DNA of 35,906 nucleotides from Alicyclobacillus sp. (GTDB lineage Bacteria; Bacillota; Bacilli; Alicyclobacillales; Alicyclobacillaceae), in contig JAILZF010000004.1 of the NCBI GenBank assembly GCA_023512635.1, positions 1-35,906 of the forward strand, written 5' to 3'. The position numbers and the translations under genes are program-made. Under the pieces are notes generated by a model, which saw only the letters and a program-made list of their open reading frames with translations, was not told the origin of the DNA and made no database searches. Below, piece by piece: positions 8,528 to 18,796 of the stretch (position 1 is its first letter; each line of letters opens with the position of its first letter).

Positions 8528-9324
8528 ACCGGCGTACAGGCTTGCTTCTGGTGGGTCACGGTACAAGGCTGCCCGCGGGACAATGGGCGTTTCAAGAGTT
8601 TGTTCAGCAATTGGCCGCTACCCTGCCAGCGTTCCTCCCGGGGAGAGAGCTCCCGCCCCTGGCGACCGCCTATCTGGAGCTGCAGCAACCAAGTGTGCCC
8701 GAGGCTGTCCAGGCGTTGGTGGAACAGGGGGTCAAGCACGTCGTGGTCGTGCCATTGCTGCTGCTGGCTGCCGGCCACTGGCACCGTGATCTGCCTGATC
8801 TGCTCGCGGCGGCACAAGCGTGGACCCCGGGGGTGGACTTGACCTTGGCTGCGGCCGTCGGCCCTGACCCGGCGTTCATTCGGGCCGCCGCGGACCGATT
8901 GCAATCAGTGGGCTTCCAGCCTGGCGACGGCCAGGCGGGGGTGTTGTGGGTCACCCGAGGTCACCGCGGTCTGCAAGCGCTGCGTGATACTGCCCGGCTG
9001 GAGCGGCGGCTGCAGGCGTTGCTGCGCACTCCCTGGTGGACGCACGCTACCCTGGCGGGAGAAGGGCCGTCGCTGCAGCAAGCCTTGGCCACCTGCGCGC
9101 AATGGCCTGTGCGGCACTTGTACGTCCTACCGTATCTGTGGTTTCCAGGTCGACTCACTGAACAGGTGGTCCGTACGGTTGCCGCCGCTCAGTCTAGCTT
9201 GCCAGCGTTCATCCATATCGCCCCCCCGCTGGGGGACCATCCGCTGATTGTCGCCAAGATGTGTGCACGCGCTGCGGCCCTCATGGGCTCGGCGAAGATA
9301 GCGGATAGCGCCCATGGCGTCTGA
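8524..9324 (+). CDS. sirB: Sirohydrochlorin chelatase (SirB/CbiX-type)
   Basis: Inserts Fe2+ into sirohydrochlorin to make siroheme. The GTG at 8524 overlaps the upstream stop by four bases and gives 266 residues, the size of two-domain SirB proteins. It begins with GLLLVGHGTR, whose His is a metal ligand. The second conserved His region is VVVPLLLLAAGHWHRDLP. The C-terminal half repeats the fold (GVLWVTRGHRGL, then LYVLPYLWFPGRLTEQV). Context in a sulfite reductase operon argues for iron, not cobalt. The dehydrogenase SirC, which normally follows or precedes it in Bacillus, is missing here. Confidence 0.88.
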   Translation: MNRRTGLLLVGHGTRLPAGQWAFQEFVQQLAATLPAFLPGRELPPLATAYLELQQPSVPEAVQALVEQGVKHVVVVPLLLLAAGHWHRDLPDLLAAAQAWTPGVDLTLAAAVGPDPAFIRAAADRLQSVGFQPGDGQAGVLWVTRGHRGLQALRDTARLERRLQALLRTPWWTHATLAGEGPSLQQALATCAQWPVRHLYVLPYLWFPGRLTEQVVRTVAAAQSSLPAFIHIAPPLGDHPLIVAKMCARAAALMGSAKIADSAHGV

Positions 9325-9347
9325 TCAAGCCCGCCGCGGGCGCTATC
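9304..9347 (+). repeat. Inverted repeat at the end of the sulfate operon
   Basis: Perfect 10-base stem GATAGCGCCC/GGGCGCTATC with a 24-base GC-rich loop, overlapping the last codons of sirB. No T tract follows, so it is at best a weak terminator or an mRNA-stabilising 3' structure. Confidence 0.35.
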
Positions 9348-9418
9348 TAATAGGCTCGGGTGTCTGCGGCGGGTGTTCTGCATCCCCCTTTCCGCTTCTT
9401 CATCTGCTCCTCCTTCCA

Positions 9419-9447
9419 TTGTCATTCACGCATCTCCAGAGTACAGT
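9419..9447 (+). promoter_or_regulatory. Candidate sigma-A promoter for the small exported protein gene
   Basis: TTGTCA (9419-9424), 17-base spacer, TACAGT (9442-9447). It lies about 105 bases upstream of the TTG start at 9552. The -35 match is good and the -10 only fair. Confidence 0.35.
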
Positions 9448-9551
9448 GAAGATAACACCACACCGTCCTCCGTCATCAGCAGTGCGGGGTCGGGTTCAGT
9501 GGTGCTCTTGCTCTCAGCTGTTTCGCTGTACTGCCATGAGGAGGGAAAACC

Positions 9552-10010
9552 TTGATCAAGCGGATTGTGCTCAGTCTACTGAGTTGGTGTTTGGTGATGG
9601 CAGCTGCTATCACGCCGGCGGCCGCGGTCGTCCGTACTGAAGCTGTCTCTGTGCAATCGCTGCAGCAACAGGTCAACCCGGCTCAGGTCGAGGTCCAACC
9701 TGTCGCCTTGCGCGCGGGGACGAGTGCGAGTGCGGGGGGCGGCTACCGCTCTGGCTACCGTACACCTTCTGCCAGCGCGGGAAGTTACGGTTTTTCTCGG
9801 CCGTCCGCCAGTCCGCTTCCGAGCAGCAGCGGTTGGGGATCGCACCTGTTCTCTTTTGGCGCTGGGTGGTTGCTCGGCAGTATGTTTCACCCTTTTGGTT
9901 ATGGCGTCTGGGGAACCTACCACAGTTTTTCGCTGTTTGGATTGATTTTTGACCTCTTGGCACTGTACCTGCTCTGGCGGCTTGTACGCTGGCTGTTTTT
10001 ACGGCGGTAA
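9552..10010 (+). CDS. Small exported Gly/Ser-rich protein with hydrophobic C-terminus, function unknown
   Basis: The 152-residue product starts with a signal peptide (MIKRIVLSLLSWCLVMAAAI, then TPAAAV). Next comes a low-complexity region rich in Gly, Ser, Tyr and Pro (about 57-95). A hydrophobic part follows (SFGAGWLLGSMFHPFGYGVW, then SLFGLIFDLLALYLLWRLV) and the end is basic (RWLFLRR). It is probably a membrane or surface protein with a flexible outer linker. The start is TTG, supported by a strong GGAGGG site six bases upstream. It stands alone between the sulfate operon and the convergent EAL gene. I do not recognise a family. Confidence 0.65.
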   Translation: MIKRIVLSLLSWCLVMAAAITPAAAVVRTEAVSVQSLQQQVNPAQVEVQPVALRAGTSASAGGGYRSGYRTPSASAGSYGFSRPSASPLPSSSGWGSHLFSFGAGWLLGSMFHPFGYGVWGTYHSFSLFGLIFDLLALYLLWRLVRWLFLRR

Positions 10011-10197
10011 GTTGACGTGGCAGTGACAGGGGTGTCACCCAGGTTTCAGGGGTCGATCCGGGGGGACCGCCGGGACGGGCTGCCGCCGCGCACAACCCCG
10101 GCGGCCGTCAAGGCCCGCGGTGGGCGCTGCCCGATGGGCACGGGTGTCCGCGGCGGCCAAGCGCGCGCACAGCGCCCCTACCACCCCGTACCGGCTG
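10011..10197. other. GC-rich intergenic region with palindromes between convergent genes
   Basis: No gene seen. It contains a perfect hairpin GTGACA-gggg-TGTCAC (10023-10038) and a wider CCGCCGGG/CCCGGCGG inverted repeat further in. Neither has a T tract. They may stabilise or end the converging transcripts. Confidence 0.4.
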
Positions 10198-11535
10198 CTA
10201 CCCCTGTCTCTCTCTAGCCTGCCAAACCCCCTCTACGTCTGCCCAACTAGCGGGCGCATGCAAGGTTTCCGCCGCCAGCACGCGCGCGAACTCGGCTGCC
10301 GGCAACGGGCGGCTGAACAGAAAGCCCTGCAACTCATCACAGCGGTGATCGCGCAGAAACTGCCACTGGCGGGCGGTCTCAACCCCCTCACCCACCACCC
10401 ACATGCGCAATCGGTGTCCCAACTCGATGATAGCTGACGCCACCTGGACCGCCGCGTCATCCGCCCATTGCAAGAAGGATCTGTCTAATTTTAAGGTATT
10501 GACAGGCAAGTGACAGAGCGTGCTCAACGTGGAGTAGCCGATGCCAAAGTCATCGAGCGCCACGCGCACCCCCATCGACTGCAATTTTTGCAACGTCTCC
10601 CGCACAGCCTCCGCGCGCAGCAACAACGTACTCTCGGTGATTTCCACTTCCAGCCAATGCGGATCTACCCCATACTCTTCCAGTATCTGCTGCATGGTTC
10701 GCGCAAAATCAGAAGATTGAATCTGCAATCGCGAGACGTTCACCGCTACCCGCACCAGCGGCATCCCCTGCCGCTGCCACTCCCGCAACTGTCGGCAGAC
10801 TTCGCGCAACACCCACTGACCAATAGGCACAATCAGACCTGACTCTTCCGCCATCGGGATAAACTCGCCAGGCGGTACCATTCCTCGGCGCGGGTGCAAC
10901 CAGCGGATCAAAGCTTCTGCACCGGTAATGCGCCCGCTCCACGCGTGCACGCGCGGCTGGTACTCCAAATAAAACTCCCCTTGTGCCACCGCCCTGCGCA
11001 AGTCACGCAGCAACCGAATCCGCTCCTGAATACCACGGCCAATGTCTGGCGAGTAGACCACCACCTGCCCCGCCCCGAGCGCACGCGCCGCAGCCAACGC
11101 CGTTTGTGCTTGGGCCCACAAGCTGGCAGCATGACCGTCCGCCGTGACAGCAGCCCCGACGGATGCGTCCACCGGAATCCACTCCCCTTGCGCCTGAACC
11201 GGCTCCACCAGCAAAGCCAACAGTTCCCGCGCCCGCGCGTCCAGTTCTGACGCTCTACCGTCCTGCTCCGTCACACTTCCCGTCAACTCGTCCAGGACCG
11301 CGAACTCATCAGCACCTACCCGCGCTATCCACCGGGAACGCCCTGTGAGCGCGCAGCGCAAGCGTCTCTCAACTTCAGTCAGCACCGCTGCCCCCGCGTC
11401 GTCTCCCAAACCGTGGCAAAGCAACCGAAAGTGGTGCAGGTCCAACAACCATAGGCCCGCCAACCGCCCAACCCGCAGACAGCTGCGCAAGTGCTGCAAC
11501 AGCTCAGCTTCAGGCACTGCTGCGTGCTCACGCAT
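10198..11535 (-). CDS. GGDEF-EAL protein, probable cyclic-di-GMP phosphodiesterase
   Basis: A cytoplasmic 445-residue protein with no membrane segment. Residues about 20-165 form a GGDEF domain whose active-site motif is GADEF (74-78), so cyclase activity is doubtful. Residues about 170-430 form an EAL domain with the catalytic set in place: EAL (207-209), Asn266 (VNVS), the ITES motif (299-302), DDFGIG (328-333), Lys349 and Glu383 (EGVET). It should hydrolyse c-di-GMP to pGpG. The chosen ATG at 11535 overlaps the fapA-like stop by eight bases (ATGCGTGA) and has GGGAGG upstream, so translation is coupled. Both genes lie behind a c-di-GMP riboswitch, which makes a feedback loop. Confidence 0.88.
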   Translation of the reverse strand: MREHAAVPEAELLQHLRSCLRVGRLAGLWLLDLHHFRLLCHGLGDDAGAAVLTEVERRLRCALTGRSRWIARVGADEFAVLDELTGSVTEQDGRASELDARARELLALLVEPVQAQGEWIPVDASVGAAVTADGHAASLWAQAQTALAAARALGAGQVVVYSPDIGRGIQERIRLLRDLRRAVAQGEFYLEYQPRVHAWSGRITGAEALIRWLHPRRGMVPPGEFIPMAEESGLIVPIGQWVLREVCRQLREWQRQGMPLVRVAVNVSRLQIQSSDFARTMQQILEEYGVDPHWLEVEITESTLLLRAEAVRETLQKLQSMGVRVALDDFGIGYSTLSTLCHLPVNTLKLDRSFLQWADDAAVQVASAIIELGHRLRMWVVGEGVETARQWQFLRDHRCDELQGFLFSRPLPAAEFARVLAAETLHAPASWADVEGVWQARERQG

Positions 11536-13420
11536 CACCGTTCGCCTCCCCCCGCGCTGGCGCAAAACACACGTTGCGCTCCGCTGTCCACGTCCGGTCA
11601 TACCGTCCAGCGACTTCTAAAACGGTATTTGGATGGCGCAACCCAACCACAATCCAGCCCTCTGCTTGTTGAACCCTCACCTCTGTCGGCGATCCCGCTG
11701 CACTGCCCAACTCACCCAGGACCACCGCCCGCCCGGCCACAACCTTCCCGCCGCGCACAGCCCCGCGGACATGCACCGCCTGGGCCGCTTCCAAGTCACT
11801 CGCCAAGCTGCCCGTCCCCGACAGACGAATCCACCCTGCCGACCACAGCGTACTGTGCGTGACGCTAGTTGCCCGCAAGACAGGCAACTCGGCGTGCAAA
11901 GCCGAGACAGCGTTTGCGCTTGCGCGTACCGCCGCTGCCAACTCAGACACCGCCGCAGCCGACAACCCTGCCGGCTCATCCTGCAGCCAATTCTGCAGGC
12001 AAAGAGCCAATGGGCGCATCGCCGCCACCATTGTCAACGGTGGTTGCCGCAGCAAAGCCGCAACCGTTTGCAAAGATGCACGCAATTGTGGATAGCGCTG
12101 GGCAAGCAAGGCGTAAGCCAAGCGCCCTTGCAAGCGGCCATCCTCCCCTCGTGTTGCAGCGCTTTCACCGAGTATACGGCAATCCTCGGCGAGCTTCATC
12201 AACTGCTGGCAGATTTCCTCTGCATGCTGGAGGAACCCTGAATAGGCGGTAGTCCCTCCGCCCGCGTACACCTGCGCGCGGGATACCCGGCCGGCAATTC
12301 GCACCGGTCCGCCAGCCCAGACCTCAGCCTGGCATACGTCACCCTCAATGGTCACACCCCCGGTGGCGCGTACTTGTGCACCCGGCAAGAGTGACCCTCG
12401 AATCGTCACACAACCGTCAAACACCAGCGGATTGTCTTGGGCTGTGAGGTCCTGCGGCCAGTCCAGGTGTGGCAAAACCTGAATCCAGCGGTCCGTCCAG
12501 ACCAACCGTCCCGTCCGAGCCGCCACCAGCTCTCCCTCTTGCTCACACACCCCATCCCCCAGCGCAGGAGCCCGTGCAATCGGAGGAGGTAACACTACCT
12601 GCCCATAGACATCTCGTCCCATCACCCCTTGCACCGCCGGTGCTTGATAGCCGAAACGCTGCCCTGCCGACAGCAGCACCCAGCCTTCACGCCGACCCTG
12701 CCGGCGCACCTCCGGCAGCAACCGGTAGCGCGGTGGCAAAGGCCGGTGCGGCCGTCTCCCACGTATCACGACTGCCTCCGCATCGTGCACCGCTTGTCCC
12801 AACCGCTGTAAAGCGCACACGTCCAGCTGCCCTTGCAAGCCAGCTTTCATCATCCCAGCCAACAGCAGGCGCGGCTCGGCCGGCGGTGGCGCCAAAGGAC
12901 GTTCGCAGAGCGACAAGTGCAGGCGCCTCGCTGGTGGCGCATCCACCAACACCCAGACCCTGCCCACCTGCACGCGCTTTACCAGCGTGGCACTGAGGCG
13001 ATCCGTTGCCACCCGCCACTCATAACTCACCTTAGGCGGCTCGTCCCTGGTGCACACCTCCAGCTGTTGCCCTGCGCGCACCTGAACGTCTCCCTGAACG
13101 GGCTGTCCATCCAACGTCACAGTCAGTGCGGCCGCCGCAGGGATCACCAGGGTAGCCAGCTCCCCGCCGGGCGAGGGATGACGCACCAACACCCGTCCAT
13201 TCTCTACCCATACAACGCCGTCCACCGGCCGGACAAGTCTGCGCAACCCCTGCTTCGGCTTTCGCCCCACGCGCGGACGAGGGTGACGAGGGCCTGGAGA
13301 CACTGCCGACTGGCGGCGATGTACCGGGACCACGGCCGTCCTCTCATGTTCCGGAAAACGTGAAAGTTTCGGAAATCCGGAAAACCAATGTCTGATGCGG
13401 AACACCATGCTTGGCCACAT
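11528..13420 (-). CDS. fapA: FapA-family (DUF342) polymer-forming protein
   Basis: A 630-residue protein of the FapA/DUF342 family, whose members have a repetitive right-handed beta-helix and affect flagellar or surface functions. The middle has the family motif near GRDVYGQVVLPPP, then ALGDGV, and a run of short beta-helix turns (GCVTIRGSLLPGAQVRATGG, VTIEGDVCQAEVWAGGPVRI). A helical segment of about 130 residues interrupts the helix, and solenoid-like turns return at the C-terminus (VRGAVRGGKVVAGRAVVLGE). The first 60 residues are basic and unlike the family. Start ATG 13420 has AGCGGAGGA nine bases upstream, just after the riboswitch terminator. Its role in this organism is inferred from family and c-di-GMP context only. 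Confidence 0.75.
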   Translation of the reverse strand: MWPSMVFRIRHWFSGFPKLSRFPEHERTAVVPVHRRQSAVSPGPRHPRPRVGRKPKQGLRRLVRPVDGVVWVENGRVLVRHPSPGGELATLVIPAAAALTVTLDGQPVQGDVQVRAGQQLEVCTRDEPPKVSYEWRVATDRLSATLVKRVQVGRVWVLVDAPPARRLHLSLCERPLAPPPAEPRLLLAGMMKAGLQGQLDVCALQRLGQAVHDAEAVVIRGRRPHRPLPPRYRLLPEVRRQGRREGWVLLSAGQRFGYQAPAVQGVMGRDVYGQVVLPPPIARAPALGDGVCEQEGELVAARTGRLVWTDRWIQVLPHLDWPQDLTAQDNPLVFDGCVTIRGSLLPGAQVRATGGVTIEGDVCQAEVWAGGPVRIAGRVSRAQVYAGGGTTAYSGFLQHAEEICQQLMKLAEDCRILGESAATRGEDGRLQGRLAYALLAQRYPQLRASLQTVAALLRQPPLTMVAAMRPLALCLQNWLQDEPAGLSAAAVSELAAAVRASANAVSALHAELPVLRATSVTHSTLWSAGWIRLSGTGSLASDLEAAQAVHVRGAVRGGKVVAGRAVVLGELGSAAGSPTEVRVQQAEGWIVVGLRHPNTVLEVAGRYDRTWTAERNVCFAPARGEANGDA

Positions 13421-13468: not shown

Positions 13469-13511
13469 CGCCGTGGTCCTCCCCACGTAAGCAACACCGG
13501 CCCGAGGCCTG

Positions 13512-13600
13512 TGGCAACCCGGCGATCATAGGCGGCCACCGCCGCCCGTAGACCCGTGGCTTTGCGTCTCAACGTTTCCGTTGATTTGCCCTTGGTTCTA
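13512..13600 (-). ncRNA. Cyclic-di-GMP-I riboswitch (GEMM-I) upstream of fapA-EAL
   Basis: The minus strand carries the GEMM-I core in order: AAGGGCAAAT, a stem TCAACG-GAAA-CGTTGA with GNRA tetraloop, GACGCAAAGCCACGGGTCTA, a second stem GGCGGC-GGTG-GCCGCC, then CGCCGGGTTGCC. In the first stem, the usual C-G pair next to CAAAC is T-A here, with both sides changed, which is a compensatory change relative to the second copy in this window. The three G residues of AGGGCAAA, expected for c-di-GMP rather than cGAMP variants, are kept. It is followed by a terminator, so it acts on transcription. Confidence 0.92.
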
Positions 13601-13831: not shown

Positions 13832-14431
13832 CTAGGACCTTGGCCACAGCCACTGCGTCAGCAGCTCGCGCCGGTTGCTTACACCAAGCTTTTGAAACAC
13901 GCGGCTCAGGTGGTTTTTCACCGTGTGTTCGCTGATGTGCAACGCTTGTGCTATCGCACGGTTGCTCAAACCTGTCACAGTCAGCGCCAAGACCTCTTGC
14001 TCACGGTCCGTCAACCCTTCGGTTGGCCAATCCACGCTGTCGAAACCCTTGCTCCCCGCCGCGGGAAAAGGCTCATGCCGACGTGCCAGCGGCCGCCATC
14101 CCTCCGTTGTACGCTGCGAGCTTCCCTGTGGACGTAGCTCAGCGGGTGCCGGCATCCCCGCTGCGGATCGTCCTGCAGCACCAGACAGGGCATAGACCGC
14201 CCGTTCCCCCCTGCCGAATACTTGCAACTGCGCACAATCTACAAGCTCTGCCAACGCTCCGGCCACTGCTGCTGGCTCACAGCCCATCCGCCGCGCCAAC
14301 CCTTGCGCCGTATCGTACGTAAACGGATTGCGTAAGAAAAACTGCAAACACTCCCTCACCAACGGCCGCGCCGCCTGCACCGGTGGCCCCTGGCTCTGAC
14401 GTTGGCCGCGCGTACCGGGTCTGTTGCTCAA
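13832..14431 (-). CDS. LuxR-type DNA-binding protein without receiver domain
   Basis: A 199-residue transcription regulator. The C-terminal 60 residues are a clear LuxR/NarL helix-turn-helix (LTDREQEVLALTVTGLSNRA, then IAQALHISEHTVKNHLSRVF). The N-terminal part (about 20-75: RECLQFFLRNPFTYDTAQGL, then ARRMGCEPAAVAGALAEL) looks like a small winged-helix fold. There is no phosphoacceptor domain, so it is not a classical partner for the nearby kinase. The start is uncertain: TTG 14431 is the longest possible, with an in-frame stop 27 bases upstream and only a weak ribosome site; GTG 14380 is an alternative with AGGGG upstream. It follows the KaiC-like gene in the same direction. Confidence 0.8.
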   Translation of the reverse strand: MSNRPGTRGQRQSQGPPVQAARPLVRECLQFFLRNPFTYDTAQGLARRMGCEPAAVAGALAELVDCAQLQVFGRGERAVYALSGAAGRSAAGMPAPAELRPQGSSQRTTEGWRPLARRHEPFPAAGSKGFDSVDWPTEGLTDREQEVLALTVTGLSNRAIAQALHISEHTVKNHLSRVFQKLGVSNRRELLTQWLWPRS

Positions 14432-14504: not shown

Positions 14505-15935
14505 TCAGCGCAGCACCGCTCGGCCGCCTGCTGTTTCCCACTGCAAGATGTAAGGGGGGGACAACATCCCCACCGGACTTTTTCGGACCTGTACATAGGT
14601 ATACCCGCGCTCTGTCCAGAGCCGCAGCACCCCGTCGCACATCCGCCACAACTGCTGTCCGGCCGGTTCCCCTAACTCGCGCACATTGGCATGGACCCAG
14701 GCGCTCACCCCAATGCTGCGCAGCCCTGCCAACGCCTCGACCAATCCGGTTCCCAAGCCAGCCCTGCGGCCGGGGTAAAACGGGTGCAAACTAAAACCGA
14801 CAAACCACCGGCCGCCTTCGCGCAGCCCCCGCAACACCAAGGCCGTCCCACGCCGCCGCACAAACCTGCGAAACTGTCGCTGCCCTCCCTTGAGCGCCAA
14901 CCACCCAGCATGCAGGACCGGTGGTGCCGGCCGGTTTAACGGCTCCACCAACCACGCCCGCCGCTCCCGTACCAGCTGCGGTAACTGCGGCAGAGCCGCC
15001 AGCCAATCGCTTGCAGACAAGCCTTCCGACATGCCGAGCAACAGCCGGACTTCCCGCTCCCCTGCGTGTAGGCGCGCCGCCCCTGTGAGCACACGCCGGG
15101 CGGGCGCGCAAGCGTCCGCATCCAAAAGCACCAGCGTCCCCGCCGGGAACGCCTCTTGCACCAAATCGCCCAGGTGTTCTGGTGTTGTTCCTGCCCAACC
15201 CGCTGCCTCTTCCCCTGGACCAGCGGTGTGCAGTACATGCAGACCCTTGTGGCCAATTCGTAGCACGTGGGACTGCGGTTCCGCCCGCGTCCCGCGCATT
15301 TTCCAAATCTCTAACCGCCTTTCTCGGTAACATCCGGGCAGCCTGCGCCAAGTGAGGCGAATGATGCCGTCAAACACGTAGTGTTCCGGAGCTCTGCCCA
15401 CCGACAGGGGACCCTCATCCTCACGGATTAGCAGAGCCGTTAACCCATGCCGGCGCAACGCCCCGCGTACACTGTAGAGCAATTCGCGCTGGGCCCCCGG
15501 CTCCGCTGCCAACGCCTTGAGCGGGGTTAAGTTGTCCAACACCAGGCGCTTGCAGCCGAGCAACCGCAAAAGCTCTGCCAACCAGCTGCCTTCGCTGCAA
15601 AGCGCTTCCACCAAAGCGCGTGGCGTGGTACAAACCACCCGAAGCATACCGGCCGCCTCGGCCGCTCGCACATCCCAAGCAAAGCCGGCCGCTAAGTCAT
15701 AGAGCTGCTCGGGCAGTTCTTCAAACGTGATGTACACACCCGGTTCATGAAGTTCCACCGCTCCCCGGTAGATATACTCCAGCCCGAGCAGGCTTTTCCC
15801 TGTCCCAGGACAACCTTCGACCAACACCGCCGAGCAGGCGGGCAATCCTCCGCCCAACGCGCTGTCCAATCCCGCCACCCCTGTGGCCACTCGTTCCATG
15901 GTCATGGACACCCCACCGCTCTTTCCTGTGGCCAT
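14505..15935 (-). CDS. KaiC-like RecA-superfamily ATPase
   Basis: A 476-residue protein whose first 240 residues are one KaiC-type ATPase domain: ATGVAGLDSALGGGLP, Walker A GCPGTGKS (41-48), the catalytic glutamates in TFEEL (70-74), Walker B LVLDN (131-135) and the LEIWKMRGTR motif near 208. The last 235 residues have no Walker A and I do not recognise them; they may be a degenerate RecA-like or sensory domain. ATG 15935 is used; ATGs at 15905 and 15899 (MTMERVATG) also fit family N-termini. Such stand-alone KaiC proteins often work in signalling. Divergent from the c-di-GMP-controlled peptide gene and co-directional with the LuxR gene. Confidence 0.82.
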   Translation of the reverse strand: MATGKSGGVSMTMERVATGVAGLDSALGGGLPACSAVLVEGCPGTGKSLLGLEYIYRGAVELHEPGVYITFEELPEQLYDLAAGFAWDVRAAEAAGMLRVVCTTPRALVEALCSEGSWLAELLRLLGCKRLVLDNLTPLKALAAEPGAQRELLYSVRGALRRHGLTALLIREDEGPLSVGRAPEHYVFDGIIRLTWRRLPGCYRERRLEIWKMRGTRAEPQSHVLRIGHKGLHVLHTAGPGEEAAGWAGTTPEHLGDLVQEAFPAGTLVLLDADACAPARRVLTGAARLHAGEREVRLLLGMSEGLSASDWLAALPQLPQLVRERRAWLVEPLNRPAPPVLHAGWLALKGGQRQFRRFVRRRGTALVLRGLREGGRWFVGFSLHPFYPGRRAGLGTGLVEALAGLRSIGVSAWVHANVRELGEPAGQQLWRMCDGVLRLWTERGYTYVQVRKSPVGMLSPPYILQWETAGGRAVLR

Positions 15936-16170: not shown

Positions 16171-16199
16171 TTGACAGTTAAACTTTGGCAAGCTAGAAT
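16171..16199 (+). promoter_or_regulatory. Near-consensus sigma-A promoter of the riboswitch-peptide transcript
   Basis: -35 TTGACA (16171-16176), exact 17-base spacer, -10 TAGAAT (16194-16199). It is the best promoter in the window, so this RNA is probably abundant, with control left to the riboswitch just downstream. Confidence 0.85.
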
Positions 16200-16288
16200 A
16201 GGCGCAAGGGCAAACCTGTCCGAAAGGCAGGGACGCAAAGCCACGGGCCTACAGCGGCGGTGCCGCTAAGGCAGCCGGGCTGTCGGTA
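16200..16288 (+). ncRNA. Cyclic-di-GMP-I riboswitch (GEMM-I) upstream of the small exported peptide
   Basis: The plus strand reads the GEMM-I core in order: GCAAGGGCAAACC, a stem closed by a GAAA tetraloop (CCTGTCC-GAAA-GGCAGG), GACGCAAAGCCACGGGCCTA, a second stem (AGCGG-CGGTG-CCGCT), then GGCAGCCGGGCTGTCGG. The GGG of GGGCAAACC is kept, as in c-di-GMP binders. No terminator follows. The segment GTATCCT (16286-16292) can pair with AGGAGAC (16304-16310) at six of seven positions, which would cover the ribosome site AAAGGAG, so control of translation is the likelier mode. This last part is inference. Confidence 0.92.
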
Positions 16289-16318
16289 TCCTACCCGTTA
16301 GAAAGGAGACCTCACCCG

Positions 16319-16540
16319 ATGAAACGAATGTTCCTCACGAGCGTGACCGCGGCAACCCTGTTGTTATCGTCCGTGACCCCCGCTTTTGCTGACGTTATCC
16401 GCGCTGGCGGACAAACCACCGGCCAACCGGTGGCCGCTCAGTCGAATCCCGGCAGCGCCCAAGGCCAAGCCAATCGTTCCGCTACGGGCACCAGCAACAA
16501 GCTGACCCACGACGGTACGGTGCCGATTTGGCCCGACTGA
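16319..16540 (+). CDS. Small exported peptide under c-di-GMP riboswitch control, function unknown
   Basis: A 73-residue protein with a standard signal peptide: MKR, a hydrophobic stretch, and a cleavage site after PAFA (24/25). The predicted mature part is about 49 residues, rich in Gly, Gln, Ser, Thr and Asn and with no Cys. It ends in DGTVPIWPD. Start ATG 16319 has AAAGGAG ten bases upstream and lies about 30 bases after the aptamer. Strong promoter plus riboswitch means it is made in quantity and by c-di-GMP level. It could be a secreted signal, a matrix component or an antibacterial peptide; the sequence does not decide. Next to it are a sensor-less kinase and a TPR protein. Confidence 0.8.
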   Translation: MKRMFLTSVTAATLLLSSVTPAFADVIRAGGQTTGQPVAAQSNPGSAQGQANRSATGTSNKLTHDGTVPIWPD

Positions 16541-16574
16541 GGCTGTTGAGCCCCTCTGGCGCTAGGCTATCCTC

Positions 16575-16608
16575 CGCGAAAACCCGGTTTGAACCCCGGG
16601 TTTGCGCG
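16575..16608 (+). terminator. Strong hairpin between the peptide gene and the histidine kinase gene
   Basis: A 13-base stem with one mismatch (16575-16587 with 16596-16608) and an 8-base loop, centred on AAACCCGG/CCGGGTTT. No T tract follows. It could partly end or stabilise the peptide mRNA, so that the downstream kinase is made at a lower level from read-through. Confidence 0.5.
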
Positions 16609-16627
16609 GCATTGACGGGAGGAACCT

Positions 16628-17305
16628 GTGAGTCCAAAGCGCGGAGAACTGCCGGTCTTTGACCTCACCGACCAGGGCATCCGCCTGCTGGAGGAGGAAC
16701 GCCGGCGCATCGCCCGCGACCTGCACGACGGCCCAGCCCAAACCCTGACCAACCTGAGCATGCGCCTGGAAGTCGTCCAGCGCATGTTTCAGACCCATCC
16801 CGAGTGGGTGGCAGCAGAACTGGAGCGGTTGAATGCTCACGCCCGCACGGCGGTTAACGAAATCCGCCGTTTGATCTACGACTTGCGGCCAGTGGCCATT
16901 GATGAGGTGGGTCTGTTGCAGGCGGTGGCAGAGCTTTGCAACCGCTGTTCACGCGAATGGGACCTGCCGTTTGAGTTCACGGTCGCCGAAGGCGTGCACA
17001 CAGATTTCTCCCCAGCCAAGCAGGTGGCGGTCTACCGGTTGATTCAAGAAATCTTTCATAACATCCGCAAGCACGCTGCCGCTCAGCGCGTTCAGGTGCG
17101 GTTTTCCCGAACGGGCTGCTTGCTAGACGTCTGGGTCGAAGACGACGGCGTCGGCTTTGATCCGTCAGCCGTGCCTGTGGGTCACTATGGTATTATCGGC
17201 ATGAAGGAGCGCGCCGCTTTTCTCGACGGCAACCTGGAGATTCAGTCGGCTCCGGGACGGGGCAGCCGGTTTCACTTGGCCGTCCCCGTCTACCCAGAGT
17301 CTTGA
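16628..17305 (+). CDS. Sensor-less DegS/NarX-type histidine kinase
   Basis: A 225-residue cytoplasmic kinase of the HisKA_3 class. The phosphoacceptor is His33 in RIARDLHDGPAQ, followed by the dimerisation helices. The HATPase domain has the N-box with Asn145 (EIFHNIRKHA), DDGVGF (171-176) and GIIGMKERA. Only about 20 residues precede the H-box, so there is no input domain, and no membrane segment. Signal must come from a partner protein, for which the TPR protein 25 bases downstream is the obvious candidate. No receiver-containing NarL-type regulator is in the window. GTG start with GGGAGGAA upstream. Confidence 0.88.
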   Translation: MSPKRGELPVFDLTDQGIRLLEEERRRIARDLHDGPAQTLTNLSMRLEVVQRMFQTHPEWVAAELERLNAHARTAVNEIRRLIYDLRPVAIDEVGLLQAVAELCNRCSREWDLPFEFTVAEGVHTDFSPAKQVAVYRLIQEIFHNIRKHAAAQRVQVRFSRTGCLLDVWVEDDGVGFDPSAVPVGHYGIIGMKERAAFLDGNLEIQSAPGRGSRFHLAVPVYPES

Positions 17306-17329: not shown

Positions 17330-18796
17330 ATGAGCGAGAATTGGCAAGAGCGGCTGCAGTCCGGTTTGGCCTTGGCAGCCAAGGGATTGTATCACGCGGC
17401 GCTGGAAGCATGGGGGGCGCCGCGTGTTTGGTCGTGCCCTGACCCGGTATTGCGGGCACAGGTTTGCCATGCCACTGCAAAAGTCTATACTTTTTTAGGC
17501 CGATACGAGCAAGCCGCCATGACCTTGTTAGCAGCTCTGGCAGACCCGCTCCCGCCGGACTTAGAAGCCAAATGCCTGGTGGCGTTGGCGGTCGCTTACC
17601 GCTATACCGATCCAGACAAAGCCCACCGTTTATTGACGACCGTGTTAGACCGTTTTCGCGGCCAGCTTTCACCTTCCCTGCGTGGTGTCTTGTACAACAA
17701 CTTGGGCGACGTCCAGTGGTTAAGCGGTTTCTACCAAGAAGGATACCGCTCCATCCAGCGTAGCCTGCACGCCTTCCGGCAGGCTGAACTGCACCACCTG
17801 TTGCCCGAGGTCTTCAACAACCTGGGTGTGTTTGCCTTGGAACTCGGGCGATACACGGAAGCCCAACGCTACTTTATGCAAGCCATGCGCAGCGGCGGCA
17901 GGCGCAGCCTGTATACCTTGGTCGAGCTCAGCCGGCTGTTCTTGTTGACCGATCGGCCTGTGCGCAGCGCGGCCTGCGCCCGGCGGGCCCTGGCCATGAT
18001 TTGGTCTGCCGGCTTGCACTCCGTCCAGTTTGAGATCAGCCGCCTTTGCCGACTGCTTGCTTTGCTCTGCCGGTTGGGCGGGGACCCCGTGACAGGGCTT
18101 CACCTTTTAGAGAAAGCCCACTTGATGTTTGGCCAATTAGGCGCTTGGCGCGAATGGCGCCTGACGCAAACAGAGTTAGACCAGTGGCCGCACGCGCCAG
18201 GGGTTCACGGCACAGGATTTGTTCAACCCTGGTTACCCCACACGGATATCCACCAGTTTTTGCGTTTGCTCGACGCCCTGCAGGCGCAGCAGACACTGTG
18301 CCCGCAGTTCACCGTGTGGTTGGACACACGTGTCTGGTACGCCCGGCTGTTGGCAGAAAAGCTGGGATACTCAGGCGAGTCCCTGGACACGATGGTCCTG
18401 GCAGCACGCTTTGCCGACTACGGCCTAACCGCCCTGGAAGCGGGAATTGTTGAAAACCCCGTGCGCTCGGCCGCAGCCTGGCAGCAGTACCGCCAGCACC
18501 CTTCGTTGAGTGCCGAGCTGTTAACCGCATTGCACGTGTCCCCAGAGGTGGTAGCGATTGTCGCGGATCACCACGAGCACTGGGACGGCAGCGGCTTCCC
18601 GGCCGGAAAACGCGGGTTGGACATCCACCCGTTGGCTGCCGTGTTGGCTGTGACAGATTACTACACGCAGCAAGTGGTGACCGCAGAGCGACCGCACAGT
18701 GCCGTCTTGGCTGACCTGCAGGCGCATGCCGGTGAGGCTTTTTCTCCCACCGTGGTCAACCATTTTACCCGCCTGTTTGCTGAGGCCGCAAAATAA
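17330..18796 (+). CDS. TPR protein with degenerate HD-GYP domain
   Basis: A 488-residue cytoplasmic protein. Residues about 1-285 are TPR-like helical repeats (for example GRYEQAAMTLLAAL, GVLYNNLGDVQWLSGFYQEG, NNLGVFALELGRYTEAQRYF). Residues about 320-488 are an HD-GYP-like domain. The late motifs are kept: His390-Pro391, His414-His415-Glu416 and DGSGFP (419-424). The early metal ligands are lost: the first His is Asp332 (LDTRV) and the HD pair is Ala362-Asp363. Hydrolysis of c-di-GMP is therefore doubtful, while ligand or protein binding may remain. It follows the kinase by 25 bases with a weak ribosome site (GAGAAG). Its last 32 bases overlap the convergent MBL gene. Confidence 0.8.
   Translation: MSENWQERLQSGLALAAKGLYHAALEAWGAPRVWSCPDPVLRAQVCHATAKVYTFLGRYEQAAMTLLAALADPLPPDLEAKCLVALAVAYRYTDPDKAHRLLTTVLDRFRGQLSPSLRGVLYNNLGDVQWLSGFYQEGYRSIQRSLHAFRQAELHHLLPEVFNNLGVFALELGRYTEAQRYFMQAMRSGGRRSLYTLVELSRLFLLTDRPVRSAACARRALAMIWSAGLHSVQFEISRLCRLLALLCRLGGDPVTGLHLLEKAHLMFGQLGAWREWRLTQTELDQWPHAPGVHGTGFVQPWLPHTDIHQFLRLLDALQAQQTLCPQFTVWLDTRVWYARLLAEKLGYSGESLDTMVLAARFADYGLTALEAGIVENPVRSAAAWQQYRQHPSLSAELLTALHVSPEVVAIVADHHEHWDGSGFPAGKRGLDIHPLAAVLAVTDYYTQQVVTAERPHSAVLADLQAHAGEAFSPTVVNHFTRLFAEAAK

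Follow-up and report, generated by a model that had tools for sequence, protein, structure and literature searches.

What does a c-di-GMP riboswitch control when the gene behind it encodes only a short exported peptide, and what could read such a peptide? The question is raised by a locus of Alicyclobacillus sp. on a contig of an incomplete genome assembly (JAILZF010000004.1; assembly of 1.76 Mb, 63% complete), the whole stretch of 35,906 nucleotides that was analysed being called the window hereafter. A sequence-only reading of this locus had described a near-consensus promoter, a clear GEMM-I aptamer and a short gene with a signal peptide, and our analyses agree with it on these three elements. 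The sigma-A promoter (16171-16199, +) is made of a -35 box TTGACA (16171-16176), a 17-nt spacer and a -10 box TAGAAT (16194-16199), with 11 of 12 consensus positions matched and an average of 0.1 promoter-like sites in shuffles of the region. The c-di-GMP-I (GEMM-I) aptamer (16199-16287, +) reaches 76.2 bits (E 2e-13) with the RF01051 covariance model, whose gathering score is 35. The ORF behind it (16319-16540, +) has 73 codons and starts with a predicted Sec signal peptide, the cleavage being predicted between AFA and D (signal part MKRMFLTSVTAATLLLSSVTPAFA, mature part DVIRAGGQTTGQPVAAQSNPGSAQGQANRSATGTSNKLTHDGTVPIWPD). The mature part is rich in Gly, Ser, Gln and Asn and was correctly reported as 49 residues without Cys ending in DGTVPIWPD; likewise, no match to the peptide was found in Pfam, NCBIfam or PHROGs, in agreement with the earlier reading, which knew of no described family for it. 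To this picture are now added a second aptamer, the operon downstream of the peptide gene and a structured linker between the aptamer and the ribosome-binding site.

In a search of 151 genomes, ten clear peptide homologues were recovered, all in the same family and order (E 2e-26 to 5e-5) and all with an RF01051 or RF03167 aptamer directly 5' of the peptide gene, which indicates that the pair in the window is not due to chance. With profiles of the peptide and of the two downstream genes, 27 cassettes were found in 21 of 59 Alicyclobacillales genomes, three of the carriers being publicly named (Alicyclobacillus herbarius, A. mengziensis and Ferroacidibacillus organovorans). Each cassette contains an RF01051/RF03167 aptamer, a gap of about 25-33 nt and a peptide of 44-73 aa with signal-peptide features. 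The homology check suggested by the sequence-only reading, namely whether riboswitch and peptide travel together, is thus answered positively in all 27, and one of its refuting cases, a frame left unconserved where the riboswitch is conserved, did not occur: the dN/dS of close peptide pairs lies between 0.06 and 0.44, a sign of purifying selection, so that the frame can be considered a real gene. These counts rest on draft genomes. Six genomes (G010, G017, G024, G028, G041, G053) carry two cassettes with differing peptide tails; in G028, fragments of a group II intron lie just 5' of one of them (L178:594-887). A sister-like system at two loci (L158, L159) associates an RF03167 riboswitch, a conserved 62-residue ORF, a HisKA_3 kinase paralogue and a TPR protein having lost the motifs of its C-terminal HD domain; it was left out of the count because the 62-residue ORF has no signal peptide. 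More generally, c-di-GMP-I riboswitches are very abundant in Alicyclobacillales, with 58 of 59 genomes carrying them and up to 20 per genome (e.g., G002, G015, G024). Literature searches returned no paper on the cassette.

Judged by eye, the 27 peptides all have a basic N-terminus followed by a hydrophobic stretch. Their middle part is of low complexity, rich in Ser, Thr, Gly and Asn and highly variable, and their last 10-14 residues follow a common pattern, ..[S/T][P/H]DG..PIW(D)/PIVVE, seen as KLTHDGTVPIWPD in the window, as VNKFTHDGFRLVVE in the predicted C-terminal fragment of the A. herbarius peptide, and in variants such as THDGTVPIWPD, SPDGMVLIW, SPDTLVRPIWD, TPDSTLPIVVE and SHGWREIW. 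The last residue is D or E in 15 of the 27 and W in 7. In several relatives the mature part is down to about 20 residues and the short C-terminal motif is retained. An interpretation as a RiPP precursor was dropped, a modifying enzyme being absent from the cassette.

The way in which the aptamer could act on the peptide gene was sought in the linker to the start codon, which is short and conserved. An intrinsic terminator was rejected as the switch of the cassette because no T-run is present between the aptamer and the start codon; the other c-di-GMP-I riboswitches inspected in Alicyclobacillales mostly have terminators. In the window, CGG at 16284-16286 pairs with CCG at 16295-16297 (helix S1) and UCCU at 16289-16292 pairs with AGGA at 16304-16307, inside the Shine-Dalgarno AGGAG (helix S2); the two helices cross in an H-type pseudoknot arrangement (16284-16307, +), with an A-rich third loop. 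The pseudoknot was parsed in the 27 cassettes, three S2 helices and one S1 being read by eye and the rest by script. Across them, S1 joins a triplet at the 3' end of the aptamer (CGG, CUG, CAG or CGU) to a linker triplet (CCG, CAG, CUG or ACG), and in S2 a CCC or UCCU lying between these two triplets pairs with the Shine-Dalgarno through its GGG or AGGA. S1 pairs in 23 of 23 aligned sequences; two of its three pairs have changed on both strands, and three distinct double-changed solutions occur (CUG/CAG, CAG/CUG and CGU/ACG). The covariation score of S1 and S2 together is 0.200 versus 0.107 in shuffles, none of 500 shuffles reaching it, and pairing is at 87%, compared with 40-60% once the partners are slid; the shuffles take no account of shared ancestry. 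By this comparison, covariation shows a pseudoknot predicted to sequester the Shine-Dalgarno by means of the strand that makes P1 in other c-di-GMP-I RNAs.

Does S1 take the place of P1? S1 has just 3 bp, and a 5-bp P1 is also possible in some cassettes (e.g., L027, L157). The best P1 measures on average 2.4 bp in the cassettes and 3.3 bp in the other riboswitches of the order, a weak difference obtained with a crude rule (p 0.045), for which reason our argument is based on the position of the promoter and on the covariation of S1. In the window, 9 nt separate the end of the -10 box from the aptamer core, and the RNA is predicted to start probably within a few nucleotides of the aptamer. The promoter abuts the aptamer, with a predicted -10 box ending 6-16 nt before the core, in 18 of 27 cassettes versus 2 of 18 other riboswitches (Fisher p 2.6e-4), so that in those 18 the transcript probably lacks the 5' strand of P1. 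These data fit a putative replacement of P1 by S1. In the translational Vc2 riboswitch, it is the P1 element that switches (PMC9262584). A covariance model built on the aptamer and linker together (R1) was rejected as a detector of this platform since ordinary c-di-GMP-I aptamers across the phylum match it; among the top outside matches that could be parsed, terminators or longer ORFs were found and a comparable peptide was absent.

Downstream of the peptide gene come a strong intergenic hairpin (16574-16609, +; -22.1 kcal/mol, without T-run in the window), a soluble HisKA_3 histidine kinase gene (16628-17305, +; Pfam HisKA_3 3e-20, HATPase_c 8e-10) and a gene for a TPR protein ending in a degenerate HD-GYP domain (17330-18796, +; Pfam TPR_12 4e-11, HD_5 3e-18). 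The hairpin is found in most cassettes and is followed by a T-run in several relatives, so that the downstream genes may be obtained by readthrough. The TPR-HD-GYP gene lies 3' of the peptide in all 26 cassettes that are not broken by a contig end, and the kinase gene sits between the two in 23 of them (the window and 22 others). In the remaining three (L152, L153, L177) the kinase is missing and the peptide adjoins the TPR-HD-GYP gene, which makes the TPR protein the most constant partner. Two genomes (L155, L156) have the kinase and the TPR-HD-GYP gene without a recognisable upstream riboswitch or peptide. Kinase orthologues are 51-60% identical, and the window kinase shows the phosphoacceptor RDLHDGPAQ and no recognised sensor or membrane domain. 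The phosphoacceptor histidine is lost only in genome G052 (RDLSEGPAR), where, beside a conserved peptide (L030, kinase near 9054-9716, -), RDLSEGPARALT replaces RDLHDGPAQ; judging by this motif, the G052 kinase is likely a pseudokinase.

The TPR-HD-GYP protein of the window has 488 aa, and its AlphaFold2 model (pLDDT 90) displays successive paired TPR helices as well as an HD-GYP fold, in agreement with the best 50 Foldseek matches, which are consensus TPR proteins and HD-GYP domains. Rap, NprR, PlcR, Rgg, PrgX and AimR do not appear among these 50 or among the 60 listed PDB sequence matches, an RRNPP match of lower rank remaining possible. A search of 399 genomes of the class (E <= 1e-40) detected no orthologue outside Alicyclobacillales. 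In an alignment to solved HD-GYP enzymes, Ala or Cys stands in place of the first HD-motif His in 25 of 25 peptide-linked copies checked, the lysine of HDxGK is also replaced, and the GYP motif reads GFP or GYP; the metal ligands are mostly kept (D363, H390, H414, H415, D443). The replacement of this His and Lys makes an ordinary phosphodiesterase activity doubtful, and the protein is probably not a canonical phosphodiesterase, as far as motifs can indicate. The mean identity is 35% for the TPR domain, 42% for HD-GYP and 52% for the kinase; the TPR domain is the fastest-evolving of the three, as expected of a domain that reads a peptide, a result that also fits a mere absence of constraint. 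In the model, N124, N164 and R202 occupy consecutive TPR A-helices, at what we take, from the TPR motif, to be the groove-lining position of peptide-binding TPRs. Among 23 peptide-linked copies that were compared, N124 and N164 show no variation and R202 differs only in L152 and L153; the two peptide-less genomes have N164 or R202 changed, together with D443, and H414 as well in one of them. Since both belong to one genus and represent little more than one event, these changes are only suggestive, and the NLG asparagines are also part of the general TPR consensus.

Taken together, genome comparison shows the aptamer, the covariation of the pseudoknot, the conserved coding sequence, the putative signal peptide and the operon association, and these data are in agreement with the following hypothesis. 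The RNA would begin almost at the aptamer, and the 3' strand expected to close P1 would instead pair with the linker, giving a pseudoknot that keeps the Shine-Dalgarno in its second stem and by which c-di-GMP could control translation of the small ORF. The peptide would leave the cell by the Sec route and be cut down to an oligopeptide from its C-terminal end, which would re-enter the cell and lodge in the TPR groove of the operon's own HD-GYP-like protein; this protein could in turn pass the signal on to the kinase, to c-di-GMP metabolism or to both. Export, processing, import, binding of peptide to receptor, direction of the switch, output and response to c-di-GMP are all inferred. We give an even chance to the hypothesis that the cassette is a conserved signalling unit of Alicyclobacillales in which c-di-GMP gates a Phr-Rap-like pro-peptide read by the TPR-HD-GYP protein. 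Against this hypothesis are the kinase gene found in between in most cassettes, unlike in classical RRNPP pairs, the generic nature of the best 50 Foldseek matches, and the existence of the kinase and TPR-HD-GYP genes in two genomes devoid of the peptide.

Several other hypotheses could be issued for the role of the peptide. It could be a small secreted protein with a structural or surface role, in the matrix, in the spore coat or in adhesion, produced upon a change in c-di-GMP, the kinase and the TPR-HD-GYP protein being regulators that share its operon. Surface and matrix genes are commonly controlled by c-di-GMP riboswitches, the Gly/Ser/Gln/Asn-rich composition would suit such a role, and the third riboswitch of the genome precedes another low-complexity exported protein (L034:10115-10879); we nevertheless consider this hypothesis unlikely, as the persistence of the C-terminal motif on mature parts of about 20 residues suits a cleaved signal better and as the pairing with the TPR protein is constant, kinase-less cassettes included. 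The sequence-only reading had left the choice between cell-cell signalling and matrix building: the first is made likelier by the adjacent kinase and by the c-di-GMP-enzyme-like domain of the TPR protein, whereas the second loses ground with the shrinking mature parts. Alternatively, the HisKA_3 kinase itself could sense the peptide or be regulated by it, directly or through inhibition, with the TPR-HD-GYP protein as the partner of the kinase and not a receptor. The position of the kinase gene directly 3' of the peptide in 23 of 26 cassettes and the lack of another sensor domain would agree with this, but three cassettes associate peptide and TPR-HD-GYP gene with no adjacent kinase, and in G052 the peptide is conserved although the phosphoacceptor motif is not, which leaves this explanation rather improbable. 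Finally, the ORF is short, separates a riboswitch from regulatory genes and in most cassettes is followed by a hairpin, all of which recalls a leader peptide, whose translation would merely couple the riboswitch to the expression of the kinase and TPR-HD-GYP genes and whose product would be inert outside the cell; the conservation of the signal peptide and of the C-terminal residues at the amino-acid level, with the low dN/dS mentioned above, renders this very improbable.

The direction of the switch can be discussed independently, both directions being compatible with a c-di-GMP-gated pro-peptide. If c-di-GMP stacks on S1, it would stabilise the pseudoknot and switch translation off, and it is on this stacking that our prediction of the peptide being turned off rests, with a slight preference for off over on. 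An on-switch is not excluded and remains a possibility to which we accord somewhat less than an even chance: P1, or an upstream pairing with the anti-Shine-Dalgarno strand, would open the pseudoknot, and the 5' flank can indeed pair with the S1a strand in L027 (UUCAG/CUGAA) and L028 (CCG/CGG) and, as read from the sequence, with the anti-Shine-Dalgarno strand in L172 (UAGGA/UCCUA). However, the predicted transcript start is too near the aptamer to leave a 5' P1 strand in 18 of 27 cassettes, and S1 takes the strand that is normally stabilised by ligand binding.

The neighbourhood of the cassette contains other genes related to c-di-GMP. A second c-di-GMP-I riboswitch (13510-13600, -; RF01051, 79.7 bits), equally strong, lies 2.6 kb away on the opposite strand, ahead of a FapA/DUF342-like gene (11528-13420, -; Pfam FapA 3e-14) and a GGDEF-EAL gene (10198-11601, -; Pfam EAL 1e-73, GGDEF 1e-15); its platform is an ordinary terminator, seen in the sequence. 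Synteny supports the FapA-like gene, which is near the cassette in 10 of 10 relatives inspected (on a scale of 14-20 kb) and has its own riboswitch in several, and the GGDEF-EAL protein is a candidate for a c-di-GMP enzyme encoded beside the cassette. Between the two riboswitches of the window are encoded a KaiC-like ATPase and a LuxR/GerE regulator that lacks a receiver domain (14505-15935 and 13832-14431, both -), neither of which was near the cassette in the relatives searched. Further on, an ORF (9552-10010, +) encodes a 152-residue exported protein rich in Ser, Gly and Tyr, with a C-terminal membrane segment and no Pfam family. Elsewhere in the same genome, the third riboswitch (L034:9941-10024, +) is followed by a gene (10115-10879, +) for an exported protein of 254 residues with Ser/Thr/Gly repeats at its end.

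c-di-GMP signalling and peptide quorum sensing are usually treated as separate circuits. Here, a single operon combines a c-di-GMP sensor, a putatively exported peptide placed behind it and, next to the peptide, a TPR protein with a domain resembling c-di-GMP enzymes, so that a direct link becomes testable; if it is true, a population signal and a second messenger would be joined within one operon. The natural c-di-GMP-I platform, in which P1 is apparently swapped for a pseudoknot on the Shine-Dalgarno, would be a compact translational design, absent from the other riboswitches of the order inspected. The conserved set of riboswitch, peptide, kinase and TPR protein suggests an undescribed c-di-GMP-gated system of cell-cell signalling. 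In its complete form, in which exported pro-peptides are gated by a P1-replacing pseudoknot riboswitch and read by a receptor that joins TPRs to a catalytically altered HD-GYP domain, we propose this undescribed system only tentatively.

Compared with known systems, the cassette aptamers are like the RF01051/RF03167 c-di-GMP-I class in sequence and structure, far above the gathering score, and differ from it by a conserved Shine-Dalgarno pseudoknot built on the 3' strand of P1 and, only weakly and by the crude rule above, by a P1 that is mostly short or absent. The TPR-HD-GYP protein shares the fold and most metal ligands of HD-GYP phosphodiesterases (4mcw, 4r8z; V-cGAP3 5z7c; Bd1817 3tm8), but its HD motif reads AD or CD and the HDxGK lysine is lost, so that it does not meet the test of complete motifs. 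The kinase has the HisKA_3 and HATPase_c domains and the RDLHDGPAQ motif of the DegS/NarL type, unlike which no sensor or membrane domain is recognised in the window copy; no response regulator with a receiver domain is directly beside it in the window. RRNPP and Phr-Rap peptide quorum sensing has been defined elsewhere (PMC10075063, PMC9765709), with pro-peptides of 10-100 aa (PMC10075063) whose export is mostly by Sec. The cassette resembles these systems by the length of the pro-peptide (44-73 aa) and its conserved C-terminus, and by a cytoplasmic TPR protein of about 490 aa, encoded in the same operon and within the 250-500 aa expected of RRNPP receptors. Sec export of the cassette peptides is inferred from signal-peptide features read by eye in the 27 sequences. 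In contrast, this protein ends in an HD-GYP-like domain and not in an HTH or Rap helices, the peptide gene is 5' of the receptor gene, usually with the kinase gene in between, and a c-di-GMP riboswitch precedes the peptide. The direct adjacency of pro-peptide and receptor genes is met only in L152, L153 and L177, and since it fails in most cassettes and no relatedness to the known receptors was found among the structural and sequence matches listed, we class the cassette as working like an RRNPP system and not as a member of that family. The likeness extends to the multiple Phr-Rap pairs, which are paralleled by the six genomes with two cassettes and different peptide tails.
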